From the NCBI GenBank assembly GCA_900169975.1, contig LT827125.1:62001-126000 (forward strand): a stretch of DNA of 64,000 bases, given 5' to 3'. The notes beneath the pieces were generated by a model. It was not told where the DNA came from. It did no database searches and was given only the letters and a program-made list of their open reading frames with translations. Of the stretch, positions 31,521-60,507 are shown piece by piece (the first letter of the stretch is position 1; the number at the start of each line of letters is the position of its first letter). The position numbers and the translations under genes are program-made. This stretch comes from Pseudoflavonifractor sp. Marseille-P3106 (GTDB lineage Bacteria > Bacillota > Clostridia > Oscillospirales > Oscillospiraceae).

Positions 31521-31880
31521 TTGAAAATGACGGAGAGCGAGTGGGCCGTGCTGGAGGTCCTGTGGACCGGGGAGGCGTTTGCCCTGGGCGAGGTGGCCCG
31601 ACAGCTGGAACCTGTGACGGGCTGGAGCCGGAACACGGTGTTTACCTATTTGAGCCGGATGGAGAAGAAGGGGCTTGTCTCCATCGACCGGACCCGGGAG
31701 AAACCCTACTCCGCGGCGGTGGATCGGGAGGACTGCGCGCGGGAGGAGCGGGGCGAACTGCTCAGCCGGGTGTATGGGGGGGCTGCCGGTGATCTGGTGG
31801 CAGCCTTTTTGAAGGAGACCGTCATCTCCCGGGAAGAGCGGGAGCGCCTGCGGGGGCTGCTGGACGACATGGAGGTCTGA
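31521..31880 (+). CDS. BlaI/MecI family repressor (module 1)
   Basis: A winged-helix repressor of about 119 residues. The frame opens TTG-AAA-ATG; TTG 31521 is favoured because GGAG lies 10 bases upstream, with ATG 31527 as the alternative. KMTESEWAVLEVLW is the family start, the recognition helix region reads GWSRNTVFTYLSRMEKKGLV and the wing is REKPYSAAV. The C-terminal dimerisation helices contain the segment cleaved in BlaI/MecI when the receptor fires. It has its own double operator and is followed one base later by an M56 receptor, so it is autoregulated. Confidence 0.92.
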   Translation: MKMTESEWAVLEVLWTGEAFALGEVARQLEPVTGWSRNTVFTYLSRMEKKGLVSIDRTREKPYSAAVDREDCAREERGELLSRVYGGAAGDLVAAFLKETVISREERERLRGLLDDMEV

Positions 31881-31881
31881 C

Positions 31882-33884
31882 ATGAGGAGCCTCTGGGGAT
31901 TTCTGGTGCAGACCTTGACCGTGTCGCTGGTGGCGGCACTTTTGCTGGTGGTGAAGGAGCTGCTGGCGGATAAGCTCTCCCCTCGCTGGCAGTATGGGAT
32001 CTGGGGCGTGCTCGCGCTGCGGATCCTGATGCCGGTGTCCATGTCCCGGCATGTGCTTCTTCCGGTCCCGCTCTGGGTGGAGACATGGAAGGGAGCGGTG
32101 GAACGTACGATGGACTCCGCCTATGCCGAAGTGTACCGGGCAACCTCCGTCCAAGGGCCGGTGCCCCTCCTGGAAGGCGGCCCCCGGAGCATCACCGACT
32201 GGCTGTTTGTGATATATGCCGCGGGCGTGGCGGCAGTGCTGCTGTGGTATGCGGTATCTTATCTCCGGCTGAACGGATCCTGCGCCGTGGGCGTCCGGCT
32301 TCGGAGGAGACGCGGAAACGCATCCAGTCTGTCTGTACCGCATGTTCTTTGCGCGCCTGCCGCACTGTGGCGGTGCCGGGCCTGCCCTCCGCCTTTGTGT
32401 GCGGGGTGTTTCACCCCGTACTGGCGTTGCCCGCGGACACCGAGACCGACGACAAAGTGCTGCTCCATGAGCTGCTGCATTTTCAGCATCGGGATGCCCT
32501 GCAAAGTGTATTCTGGTGTGTCCTGCGGGCGCTTCATTGGTGCAACCCCTTTTTGCAGGCGGTGTTTGACCGCATCGGCAACGACATGGAGTCCCTTTGT
32601 GACCAGCGGGTGCTGGAGCGGCTGGAGGGCGAGGAGCGCCGGGAATACGGCGGCATTTTGCTGGAGATGGCCAATGACCGCTACCCCAGGGTGCCCGGAA
32701 CCACCTCGGTTTCCAACGGCGGGAAGAATATTGCCCGCCGGATCACGGCAATCGTGCGGTTTAAGAAGTATCCGAAGGGAATGGGGCTGGTGTCGCTGTG
32801 CATCGCCTTCGTTTTGGCGGTCCCAGTGCTGGCGGGGACCGCGGAAAGCTATGAGGGAGGTCTCTATCGCCCCCGCGATACGGGATTGAAATTCACGCAG
32901 GCAATGGCTCTGGCCCGTATCCGGCGGTGCACCACCGTGGCCGGAGCGCTGGACACCTATGCCAAGGGACTGATGTATGAAAACGGCATTTATATTGCCA
33001 CGGCGTCGCCGCTGGGCAGGCATGAGGAGATCGAAGCGGAGATTCGAAAGAATGTGGAAACGGAAAACTGGGTGGCCTACCATCTGGACGCGGGGGATGA
33101 ACTGGAATATTTATCCCGGGACAACGGATACCAGGTCTGCAATCTGGATTTGCAGGACGACGGCAGCTATAAAGCGCTGATCGTGTTCTATGCGACCGCG
33201 TTTTTGAATCCGGACGGTGAGGGCCGGTGGTGTGATAAAGACGGAAATGCCTATGCCGGCTGTGTCGCCGTTCCCGTCATCATTCGCCGGGAGAACGGCT
33301 GGGTGGTGGAGGAGCGTGGGTTACGGCAGCGTTTCCCCGGCATAGACGCCTCCGCGCTGCTGTATGCGGAAGAGCCCTCCGCTATCTTGAGAAAATATCG
33401 TGCAAATGGGGAAAGGGGGAGCGTGGAGGTGTGCGTCAGTACATGCTATACCGTTGATAATACCGTGGAGGGCGGCGACTGGGGCCTGTTCGGATCGTCC
33501 CCTTTTGATGAGACGCCAAAGCCAAACGCCGCGTTTGACCACTGTACAGAACACAGATACACAACATATGTCTTTGGCGGAAGTTTGCAGCAGCGGAAAA
33601 AACTGACGTATGCCGCCATGGAGTCCAGTCCTCTGGATTCACTGGGTGATGAGCCGGTGTTTACGGGAAAAGCCAACGTGGGAGACAGCGGCTGGAGCAG
33701 AAGCGGCGGGAGCTCCGGCTGCGGCAGAGTGGTAACACCGGACTGGGATGGGACGCTCACCGACGGCAGCGGCGGCACGGCGGAAATGAGGGATGGTCTG
33801 GCCCGGCTTCCGGCGGGCTATGCCGTGCGGCTCTATTGGAACGGTAAAGCGGTGGAAGATTTTATTCTTGAGGAGATTGGCTGA
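31882..33884 (+). pseudogene. M56 (BlaR1/MecR1-like) receptor with novel C-terminal domain, one frameshift (module 1)
   Basis: Membrane zinc-protease receptor. The first frame gives three membrane helices (VSLVAALLLVVKEL; WGVLALRILMPV; LFVIYAAGVAAVLLWYAV). A one-base shift near 32270-32300 passes to a second frame that carries the zinc site LLHELLHFQHRD, the ALHWCNPFLQAVF helix and the DMESLCDQRVLE motif, then a fourth helix (LVSLCIAFVLAVPVLAG). The roughly 330-residue C-terminal part is not a penicillin-binding domain; it includes GLMYENGIYIATASPLG and a late Gly/Ser/Trp-rich stretch. No family recognised. As written the receptor is split, so module 1 may be stuck in repression unless slippage repairs it or the shift is an assembly error. 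Confidence 0.75.
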
Positions 33885-57365: not shown

Positions 57366-57419
57366 TTTTCTGCAAAGGCAGAAAATGCTCTTGACAAAGA
57401 ACTTCTGCAAATGTAGAAT
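57366..57419 (+). promoter_or_regulatory. Promoter and two operators of BlaI module 2
   Basis: TTGACA (57391-57396), 17-base spacer, TAGAAT (57414-57419). Two similar dyads occur: TTTTCTGC-AAAG-GCAGAAAA (about 57366-57385), just upstream of -35, and TTCTGC-AAAT-GTAGAA (57403-57418), covering the -10. Their shared TTCTGC-N4-GYAGAA form suggests a BlaI-type dimer with a half-site different from module 1. Confidence 0.78.
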
Positions 57420-57443: not shown

Positions 57444-57833
57444 ATGGGAGAAGAGAAGGCTCTCTGCCGTCTGCCGGAATCCGAGCTGGATCTGATGCTG
57501 ACGGTTTGGGGGCGGGGCGGCGAGGCCAGCGCCCCGGAGATCGGGGAGGCGCTGGGCCGTCCGCTGACGGCCAGCGCGCTCCACAGCTACCTCAAACGTC
57601 TGGAGGAAAAGGGGTTTCTGTCCTGCCGCAAGGAGGGCAAAGTGAATGTGTATACCGCCCTGGTCACCGAAGAGGACTACCGGGGCCGGGAGGGGGGCGC
57701 GGTGCTGAACAAGCTCTACGGCGGTTCCCTCAAGACCTTTGCCGCCGCCCTCTGGGACGGTGGAAAGCTGAGCCGGGACGAGGTGAGTGAGCTCCAGAAT
57801 TATCTGGAGGCGCTGACCAGGGAGGGACCGTGA
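57444..57833 (+). CDS. BlaI/MecI family repressor (module 2)
   Basis: A 129-residue winged-helix repressor. LPESELDLMLTVWGRGGEAS is the family N-terminus, with the recognition helix region LTASALHSYLKRLEEKGFLS and the wing REGKVNVYTALV-like. The C-terminal helices LNKLYGGSLKTFAAALWDGG form the dimer and receptor-cleavable part. It has its own operators 30-80 bases upstream. The stop overlaps the receptor start by one base (TGATG), so the two are co-translated. Confidence 0.9.
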   Translation: MGEEKALCRLPESELDLMLTVWGRGGEASAPEIGEALGRPLTASALHSYLKRLEEKGFLSCRKEGKVNVYTALVTEEDYRGREGGAVLNKLYGGSLKTFAAALWDGGKLSRDEVSELQNYLEALTREGP

Positions 57834-60460
57834 TGGAAAAAGTATTTCTGCGGGTGCTGGCGGTGTCCTTGGTGGTCTCGGTTCCGCTGCTGCCGCTGCT
57901 GCTGCTGCGCAGACGGCTGGAGGGGCGTTACGCCCCGGAGACCAGGTGGGGACTGTGGATCGGCATTGCCATTCTGCTGCTGAGCGCACCTTTTTTGGAG
58001 ACGGTTAGGCCTCTGATTGTGGTGGAGCCTCCGGCCTATACTGTAACCCTGCCTGCCTCGTCCCCCCAGCCTGTTCGGGATTTGGCTTCGATGGAACTGC
58101 GGCCATCGGCTCAGCTCGGAGCGCCCAGGCAGATGTCCATGGCGGAGACGGCGGCAATTCCGAAGGGCGAAACGGAGCTGCGCACATCCTTCTCTCTGAC
58201 CGAGCTGGCCGCAGGCGTGTGGCTGGCGGTGGCGGTATGGCTGGCGGCGGTTCGAGTGTTCCGCTATGGGGCCGCCCGGCGCCGGCTGCTGCGGGACAGC
58301 GTGCCGGCAGCGGGAATGGAGTCACTGGAGAAGGAACTGGAGTTGGACTTTAAGGTCTCTTTCCGCCGCCGGGCGGGGTTGGAGACCCCGATGACCCTGG
58401 GGGTGTTTCGGCCGGTGATCCTTCTGCCGGAAGGAGATGCGGCGCCGCTGGCCCTGCGCCATGAGCTCCTCCATGTGAAGCGCGGGGATATTTCAGGTCA
58501 GGTGATCCTCTTTGCGGCCTGCGCGTTTCACTGGTTCAACCCGCTGGTATGGTACATGGCCCGGGGGGCGAGAGAGGACATGGAGGCCGCCTGCGACGCC
58601 CAGGTGGCCAAGGGACTGGACACCGCGGGGAAGCGGGATTACGGGGCGCTGCTCATTGCCGCCGCCGCAGGGGAAACATTCACTCCGTTTTCGACTTGTT
58701 TCGGAGGGGGCGCAGACCAGATGCGCCGCCGGCTGACCCAACTCTTCCACCCGGGGAAATCGGCCAAGGTGCTGGCATGTCTGCTGACGCTGTCGATTCT
58801 GCTGGGCACCGCCCTGGTGGCCTGTCAGCCCAAACAGTCGGACGACATGCCGTCCCTGCCCTTGGAGACCGGCTCCGGATTGACGGCGGGGGATCTGGCC
58901 GGACTTTCTATGGGGGCGGTCATGCCCGAACTGGACTATCTCTCCGACACGCTGCTGGTGTTCCACGACTACTGGGGCATGGGTGTTTACCACGTGGAGA
59001 ACGGTGTGCTGGAGCTGGTGGACACCGCCGCGTTGGGGATGAACCTGATGCAGGGAGACCAGTATACACAGGTTTCGTTGACCGGGGATGAAAAAACAGT
59101 CTATCTCCAAAATCTGCCTGCCTGGGGGGACCACTCCGGCTATTCCTATGATGTGTCCACCGGGGATGTGAAGCCGGTGGAGCAGATACCGGAGGTGGCG
59201 GATCAGATGATCCATGTGTCTGAGGAAGAGGCCAGGAGCTATCCCGTACTGTGGGACGGATGGAAGAGCAATGTGTTGGCGCTGCCGGAGGGAGGGTATG
59301 CCTATCTCTGCCTCCCTCCGGAGCTGGGGGACACCATGAACTGGCTCCAGCTTATCCGCATTGACGCCGCCGGTTTCAGACGGACCCGCTTTCTGGCGGG
59401 AACGCCCGCCGGCGGGCGGGAGTACACCGATGCCGACTGGGGTTTTACCCTCCGGCTGCCGGAAAACTGGGAGAACAAATATCTGGCGGTCAGGGGCGCT
59501 GGCTCCTGGGCCTTCTACCAGACCGACAGTTACAGCGATATGGGGGACGGCTGGATCTTTACCCTGGCGGTTGAAGAACACGACGCGCTCTACAATGCCT
59601 ACAATGGCGACCCGGAGGGAAACTGGCCGGTGCAGATGACCATTCTGGGCGAGCGGGACGGGCTGGTATACTATGTTGAATTCGTCTCCGATGTGCGGTG
59701 GAACGAGGAGACGCGGGAGAGCTATCAGGCGATGGAGGAGAGCGCCCGGCAGCTGAGCGCGGATGATTTCCGCTTCTCCGGAACGGACGGTGTGACCGCC
59801 CGGGAGGGCTGGTGGATGGAGGTGGGGACCTCGGATGGGGAAACGTTCGAGCTCTCCTGGACGGACGGCTCCGGCAGGGGCCCCCTGACGCTGGCCACCC
59901 CCCAGGCCCTGGTGCAGCTGCGGGGCGAAAACGGCGCGGGCACTTTCGCAGATCTTTGGCAGCAGCTGCCCGGCTCCCGCTGCCGCATCTATCTGCGGGA
60001 TGGGCAGGTCATCGCGGCACTGGAGCTTGTGCGGCCGGGGACTTTCCCGGAGCAGGCGGTCTGGCCCGCCGGCGGAGCCAACCGGGAGGTGCAGACTCCT
60101 TTCCTGGATGTTGACGGAATTTATCACGGGGGGATCGACATTCCGGCCCCGGCGGGAACGCCGGTGCTGGCAGCCCTGAGCGGACGAGTCACCGAGACGG
60201 CGGGGGATTCCGTCACCGTCTGGCACGAGGACGGCTGGTGGGCCTTTCGGTATGCGGGTCTCGCCGGGATCACCGTGAGGCCCGGCGACACGGTGGCCAG
60301 GGGCCGGACGTTGGGTACGACGGCCGTCTGGGAGGAGGGGGAGGTCCTGCACCTGGAAGCCCTCTGGGGCGGGGAGCCTGTTGATCCCCTGAATACGGCT
60401 CTGCGGCCCTATCTGGATGAGAGCGGCGCAGCGGTGGAACTGATCGTGCCCCAGGAGTGA
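57833..60460 (+). CDS. M56 receptor with C-terminal LytM/M23-like pseudo-peptidase domain (module 2)
   Basis: An 875-residue BlaR1-like signalling protease. Helices lie near residues 4-25, 41-58, 122-142 and 311-330. The M56 zinc site is LRHELLHVKRGD near residue 210, with the AFHWFNPLVWYM helix and DMEAACDAQVAK after it. Outside the cell, after a cysteine-containing VACQPKQSDD, come about 430 residues with propeller-like and DWGFTLRLPENWE segments. The final domain (about 755-855) is LytM/M23-like: YHGGIDIPAPAGTPVLAALS and VLHLEALWGGEPVDPLN. Zinc ligands H765, D769 and H840 are kept, but the catalytic histidines are replaced (YAGL for YxHL; V838 for the first His of HxH). Presumably a ligand-sensing domain. 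Start ATG 57833. Confidence 0.85.
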   Translation: MEKVFLRVLAVSLVVSVPLLPLLLLRRRLEGRYAPETRWGLWIGIAILLLSAPFLETVRPLIVVEPPAYTVTLPASSPQPVRDLASMELRPSAQLGAPRQMSMAETAAIPKGETELRTSFSLTELAAGVWLAVAVWLAAVRVFRYGAARRRLLRDSVPAAGMESLEKELELDFKVSFRRRAGLETPMTLGVFRPVILLPEGDAAPLALRHELLHVKRGDISGQVILFAACAFHWFNPLVWYMARGAREDMEAACDAQVAKGLDTAGKRDYGALLIAAAAGETFTPFSTCFGGGADQMRRRLTQLFHPGKSAKVLACLLTLSILLGTALVACQPKQSDDMPSLPLETGSGLTAGDLAGLSMGAVMPELDYLSDTLLVFHDYWGMGVYHVENGVLELVDTAALGMNLMQGDQYTQVSLTGDEKTVYLQNLPAWGDHSGYSYDVSTGDVKPVEQIPEVADQMIHVSEEEARSYPVLWDGWKSNVLALPEGGYAYLCLPPELGDTMNWLQLIRIDAAGFRRTRFLAGTPAGGREYTDADWGFTLRLPENWENKYLAVRGAGSWAFYQTDSYSDMGDGWIFTLAVEEHDALYNAYNGDPEGNWPVQMTILGERDGLVYYVEFVSDVRWNEETRESYQAMEESARQLSADDFRFSGTDGVTAREGWWMEVGTSDGETFELSWTDGSGRGPLTLATPQALVQLRGENGAGTFADLWQQLPGSRCRIYLRDGQVIAALELVRPGTFPEQAVWPAGGANREVQTPFLDVDGIYHGGIDIPAPAGTPVLAALSGRVTETAGDSVTVWHEDGWWAFRYAGLAGITVRPGDTVARGRTLGTTAVWEEGEVLHLEALWGGEPVDPLNTALRPYLDESGAAVELIVPQE

Positions 60461-60465
60461 AGCTT

Positions 60466-60507
60466 AAAAAGCGGCCCGGAACCAAGTGGTTCCGGGCCGC
60501 TTTTTAA
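60466..60507. terminator. Bidirectional terminator between module 2 and clpE
   Basis: AAAAAGCGGCCCGGAACC (60466-60483) pairs perfectly with 60488-60505, with A and T runs at the ends. Confidence 0.9.

Follow-up and report, generated by a model that had tools for sequence, protein, structure and literature searches.

The window analysed here is a stretch of 64,000 nucleotides from Pseudoflavonifractor sp. Marseille-P3106 (GCA_900169975.1, contig LT827125.1, positions 62,001 to 126,000 of the forward strand). It carries a two-gene operon in which a blaI-type repressor gene, overlapped at its 3' end by the start of the next reading frame, is followed by the gene of an M56 receptor (Table 1; row L001 in the census of relatives below). 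A repressor of the kind invoked by the earlier note on this DNA is thus encoded directly next to the receptor, as a member of the Penicillinase_R family. A YpsA/SLOG gene (PF06908, E 1.6e-19) lies upstream and a convergent ClpC-type AAA+ gene downstream, and a CDP-alcohol phosphatidyltransferase gene is also present among the neighbours.

Table 1. Features of the blaI-receptor operon and of its promoter, in positions of the window
Feature	Position	Strand	Basis or remark
Upstream BlaI-type dyad TTCTGCAAAGGCAGAA	57368..57383	+	35 bases 5' of the second dyad
Sigma-70-type promoter TTGACA-17-TAGAAT	57391..57419	+	11/12 consensus match; 0.1 expected in shuffles
BlaI-type dyad TTCTGCAAATGTAGAA, covering part of the -10 hexamer	57403..57418	+	Same sequence 5' of blaI in relatives
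blaI-type repressor gene, 129 aa	57444..57833	+	Pfam Penicillinase_R E 8.6e-22; PDB MecI 1sd6 E 1.9e-9
M56 receptor with C-terminal M23/LytM fold, 875 aa	57833..60460	+	ORF from ATG at 57833
Peptidase_M56 region, residues 8-302, HELLH 210-214	57854..58738	+	Pfam and BlaR1 fold match
Fourth helix (312-330) ending in lipobox-like LVAC 328-331 (58814-58825)	58766..58825	+	Model and sequence
Outer part, residues 332-525, without Pfam family	58826..59407	+	Model mostly pLDDT <50
Outer domain, residues 526-661, common to several relatives	59408..59815	+	Model blocks pLDDT 61-90
M23/LytM fold, residues 764-852	60122..60388	+	H765, D769, H840 kept; G809, V838 at catalytic positions
Terminator-like stem of 20 pairs, separating the receptor gene from convergent clpC	60464..60507	+	

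The association of repressor and receptor extends to the relatives, since blaI is the best neighbour in all 27 M56 loci examined, 20 of them fusions of M56 and M23; in L075 it stands 664 bases from the receptor gene. The YpsA/SLOG gene is found in 13 of the 20 distinct fusion loci, and clpC too in 11 of those 13, several loci being incomplete. In L070-L091, which share one chromosomal location, the receptors of different genera have outer parts of different length and domains (frames of 595-1325 aa), but blaI and the operator change little.

The operator pattern TTCTGCAAATGYARAA occurs exactly at 21 sites in 14 of 150 family genomes, against two sites for the reversed pattern used as a control in 150 family genomes. 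Seventeen of these sites, in 10 genomes, lie at blaI promoters, and the four away from blaI (G074, G081, G108 and G146) are close in number to the two of the control. Judged from these sequences, the conserved direct target looks to be the blaI-receptor operon itself, and the circuit looks mainly self-regulating. The earlier proposal that the receptor frees a BlaI repressor may then end in autoregulation, because the exact operators stand mainly at this operon. In the genome of the window, 16 forward and 15 reverse matches with up to two mismatches were found, the reversed pattern giving 10 and 9, so that the weak operator-like sites are mostly noise; among those inspected there, neither the other one-mismatch site (C19:183846) nor three two-mismatch sites revealed a convincing target. 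The gene ftsE was considered as a conserved target and rejected: its start is readable in 15 of 20 genomes, among which G074 alone has an exact site 25 bases before it (L187, G074:C7:472463), the other 14 having at least four mismatches.

BlaR1 and MecR1 are read as β-lactam sensors, and the membrane half of the receptor is of their type. Its Peptidase_M56 match reaches 123 bits (E 1.8e-35), with the HELLH motif near residue 210 as announced. The full-length model (mean pLDDT 61.8) contains long helices at residues 2-24, 35-50, 122-154 and 312-330, in keeping with the four membrane passes claimed before. Residues 4-298 of this model superpose on S. aureus BlaR1 (8ext) with a Z score of 18.4 and an rmsd of 3.5 over 233 aligned residues. 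From the charges and from BlaR1, we infer that the sensor part lies outside the membrane. The window's system therefore resembles BlaR1/MecR1 (MEROPS M56) and BlaI/MecI by its HExxH protease, its four passes, its fold, the blaI-type repressor gene in front and the dyads at the promoter. It differs from them by the absence of penicillin-binding motifs, by an outer part ending in a LytM fold, by an operon without β-lactamase or PBP gene, and by the weakness of the sequence match to BlaR1 (8exp, E 2.8).

The outer part comprises 544 residues, close to the 540 first estimated. The penicillin-binding motifs SxxK, [SY]xN and K[TS]G are all absent from residues 332-875, and no transpeptidase family is found there by Pfam, which gives nothing significant between Peptidase_M56 and Peptidase_M23. 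The latter family is assigned to the C-terminal end with 52.7 bits, for a gathering score of 28.7 (E 5e-14). The model of residues 332-875 is poor overall, with a mean pLDDT of 57.4, but the blocks covering residues 762-851 reach 73-93. It superposes on LytM (2b13; Z 15.5, rmsd 2.2, 113 aligned residues), on DipM (7qrl, Z 15.0), on EnvC (4bh5, Z 14.7), on EnvC-AmiB (8c0j, Z 14.7) and on SpoIIQ (3tuf, Z 14.4), and the LytM fold was also found by Foldseek; as the alignment behind the model included M23 relatives, this match cannot count as fully independent evidence beside that of the sequence.

The three zinc ligands H765, D769 and H840 are all present, and the two catalytic histidines are replaced by G809 (in YAGL) and V838 (in VLH, V838-L-H840). 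The only histidines within residues 730-875 are those at 765, 798 and 840, and H798 is not a relocated catalytic residue, because active stand-alone M23s, in an alignment read by eye, also carry a histidine there. The domain thus agrees with M23 peptidases such as LytM, ShyA and lysostaphin in Pfam family, fold and zinc ligands, and differs from them by the loss of both catalytic histidines and by its tethering to an M56 protease. On this sequence evidence it is probably catalytically dead, and the earlier reading of the C-terminal end as a degenerate LytM domain proved right to the residue: the profile and the fold both lead to LytM/M23, and no spare histidine is available.

The domain could nevertheless be a hydrolase of unusual mechanism, since its three zinc ligands remain and 4 of 21 relatives keep all the active-site residues. 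We consider this highly improbable, both catalytic histidines being gone with none to spare, and the zinc ligands themselves being lost in 8 of the 21.

The search for proteins combining M56 and M23 that had been suggested yielded 21 distinct receptors, whose product name at NCBI we take to be M23/M56 family metallopeptidase. A fusion was defined by profile scan as an M23 domain in the same ORF as M56, which gave 20 distinct loci plus L229. Each locus was counted once, L103 duplicating L074, and L104 duplicating L073. The family search, made with the C-terminal part of the receptor, gave 39 rows among the matches listed, 30 of them with loci, and the relatives' genomes were the best 80 of at least 581. 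In a class-wide search of 391 genomes, 34 had matches at E 1e-60, 43 rows in all, and the 30 rows with loci were scanned; M23 followed M56 in the window's own gene and in L229 and in no other of the 30 loci; two candidates per genome were scored with short flanks, so that rarer fusions can be missed.

All five active-site residues are kept in 4 of the 21 fusions (L085, L086, L087 and L229, the last read by eye), and these may still be enzymes, to judge by their sequences. Nine keep the zinc ligands and have lost catalysis: the window's receptor, L074, L076, L081, L083, L084, L113, L124 and L161 (L074 and L076 were read by eye as H, D, N, V, H, the automatic columns being off by a gap). In the remaining eight (L070, L071, L073, L075, L088, L089, L090 and L105) the zinc ligands are lost, with the reservation that L071 stops at a contig end and its third ligand is not readable. 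The replacements are diverse: glycine and valine in the window, asparagine and valine in L074/L076, glutamine in L083 and L113, cysteine in L084/L124 and, in the HxH motif, cysteine in L081 and valine in L161. By sequence, catalytic loss is thus not peculiar to the window's receptor, 17 of the 21 fusions lacking one or more of the five residues. The six relatives of the same genus that possess M23 (L070, L071, L073, L088, L089 and L090) all lost zinc ligands and kept the YxHL motif, which, at the level of sequence, is the pattern opposite to that of the window. Among stand-alone M23s from the same search, 13 of 17 are intact versus 4 of 21 fusions (Fisher p 0.0008, kinship ignored), a comparison in which the stand-alone set was chosen by similarity to the window's M23 and one of its members (L042) is cut by the contig start.

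In a tree of 43 M56 domains (L229 absent), 18 of 40 inner branches are well supported and the window's row sits on a long branch, grouped with the same-genus zinc-broken rows with a support of 100/100. A supported clade (99/98) unites the intact L085 with L083 (YAQL) and L084/L124 (YGCL). Catalysis was therefore lost at least twice in that clade, or lost and regained, because an intact member is nested among dead ones. Over the whole tree, the count of changes is seven for zinc-only, two for zinc-broken and two for intact; these are changes of label and not strictly losses, regain being possible.

The dN/dS ratios, computed by sequence pairs and given without error bars, are for the M23 core and the M56 domain respectively 0.282 and 0.279 in L074/L076, 0.158 and 0.179 in L084/L124, 0.213 and 0.276 in L073/L089, and 0.441 and 1.143 (very few changes) in L071/L090; in the intact pair L086/L087 they are 0.226 and 0.124. 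The dead M23 domains appear, from these sequences, to be maintained by purifying selection, since the ratio of their cores stays between 0.16 and 0.44 in the four dead pairs, and in three of the four the constraint is about that on the M56 protease. The pair L071/L090 is odd in that the pS of its M23 core is 0.169, against 0.009-0.011 elsewhere, which probably results from the contig end or from recombination.

This constraint bears on a first alternative, in which the LytM fold would be a mere wall anchor holding the receptor against the peptidoglycan while residues 332-661 sense the signal. Indeed, the middle domain (probe of residues 528-660) recurs in relatives with M23 and in others without it (L072, L079 and L091), and the same-genus relatives do without zinc ligands. 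Furthermore, M23 is undetectable in some relatives at the same clpC locus (e.g. L072, L079, L080 and L091). The sensor is thus able to work without this fold, the true sensor being perhaps the middle domain or residues 332-525, and this weighs against the reading preferred below. On the other hand, M23 comes soon after helix 4, with little else, in L085, L086, L087, L113 and L161, and an anchor fits poorly with dead cores constrained like M56 in three of four pairs; we hold this alternative to be unlikely.

A second alternative starts from the degenerate LytM regulators EnvC, NlpD, DipM, SpoIIQ and Csd2, which, like the window's domain, have a LytM fold with an incomplete active site and use it as a non-enzymatic part, and three of which (EnvC, DipM and SpoIIQ) match it with Z scores of 14-15. 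The dead fold would dock, like EnvC or NlpD, on a wall hydrolase or division protein and report or control its activity. The match to the LytM domain of EnvC, in both of its structures, and to that of DipM favours this possibility, as does the working of degenerate M23s through protein contacts (PMC9662197). The window's domain differs from these regulators by its preserved zinc ligands and its place in a receptor protease, which is not known to have a partner. However, no conserved partner gene adjoins (the neighbours are the YpsA/SLOG, clpC and CDP-alcohol phosphatidyltransferase genes), although for the binding and activation of an amidase such a lack is not decisive, and an operator-like site precedes ftsE in a single one of the 15 readable genomes; we take such docking to be quite unlikely.

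The third alternative concerns helix 4, which ends in KVLACLLTLSILLGTALVAC. If this helix were a lipoprotein signal, signal peptidase II would cut before C331, the outer part would become a separate lipoprotein, and M56 would be freed by its sensor or run without it. LVAC is invariant at the helix end in the eight rows of A1, and a lipobox pattern is found there in 35 of 113 M56 rows, among them 13 of the set's 20 fusions, compared with 4 of 118 rows within the first 160 residues of M56 (five M56 rows were left out, and the rows are related, so that the counts are not independent). Yet the pattern is missing in 7 of the 20 fusions and in most M56 rows, the same position reads LVVC in L077 and L082 and LVAW in L091, and helix 4 transmits the signal in the BlaR1 models (PMC7593790). 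We regard this cleavage as very unlikely. In many other M56 rows, helix 4 ends by eye in a FATS-like stretch with the look of a signal peptidase I site.

The reading we prefer, to which we give a probability of roughly 45%, is that of a one-step receptor circuit of the BlaI/BlaR1 type in which a retired surface M23/LytM fold serves as a wall-reading, that is binding, module. The LytM fold, probably with its zinc, would bind some element of the peptidoglycan or a protein attached to the wall, and such an engagement is the most likely surface event; a muropeptide is a plausible ligand. Zinc may shape the groove in the window's domain and is not needed in all members, because the same-genus relatives lost its ligands. 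The state of the wall would shift the position of the LytM fold, helix 4 would relay this movement to the M56 domain by analogy with BlaR1, and the activated protease would inactivate BlaI by proteolysis. The residues of the window's BlaI that align in 1sd6 with the MecI/BlaI cleavage site, which we take to be N101-F102, are Ala-Leu, and this counts against the preferred reading. Derepression of the operon would have as its first effect more receptor and more repressor, because exact operators are found at blaI promoters and hardly elsewhere. The wall could also act through a second signal, in the cytoplasm, because a peptidoglycan dipeptide is reported to bind BlaI/MecI directly (PMC3305447).

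The similar losses in many relatives suggest that the receptor senses the cell wall instead of antibiotics. Syntenic BlaI/M56 receptors with retired hydrolase folds would suggest that this switch of protease and repressor can respond to the wall itself as well, and would join the report of that dipeptide binding BlaI/MecI. Furthermore, because one family includes intact, zinc-only and zinc-less members, it becomes testable when a hydrolase changes into a sensor. Could an M23 cutter have been converted time and again, in the M56 receptors of the Oscillospiraceae, into a gauge that grips peptidoglycan, reads the state of the wall and, by way of M56, sets its own BlaI operon independently of antibiotics, with helix 4 often doubling as a lipoprotein signal and the sensor maybe cut off and held by its lipid? 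We consider this wider proposal doubtful, though far from negligible.

What is new here is the combination of M56 and M23 with a repeated loss of catalysis, the BlaI/BlaR1 switch and the LytM pseudoenzyme fold being known. The earlier note knew of no described sensor with this architecture. The combination itself has been mentioned, since a 2022 review of M23 lists M56 among the associated domains, which together with others make up less than 1% of matches, and so notes the same two domains in one protein; the part of it available to us contains no function, active-site survey or operator for these proteins, and to that extent the statement holds (PMC9662197). A full-text literature search, mostly at survey depth, found no description of the function of M56-M23 receptors.

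Two other blaI-M56 pairs were observed in the same genome. At 31521-33884 of the window, a second blaI (PF03965, E 5.7e-24) precedes an M56 gene that is broken into two frames, 31882-32889 and 32085-33884, which overlap; one has the N-terminal M56 part and the other the HELLH part, owing to a frameshift or an assembly error. The third pair (L097, contig C19, about 399000-409000) has an M56 protein of 312 aa without outer sensor, after which come two same-strand ORFs that weakly match part of M56.
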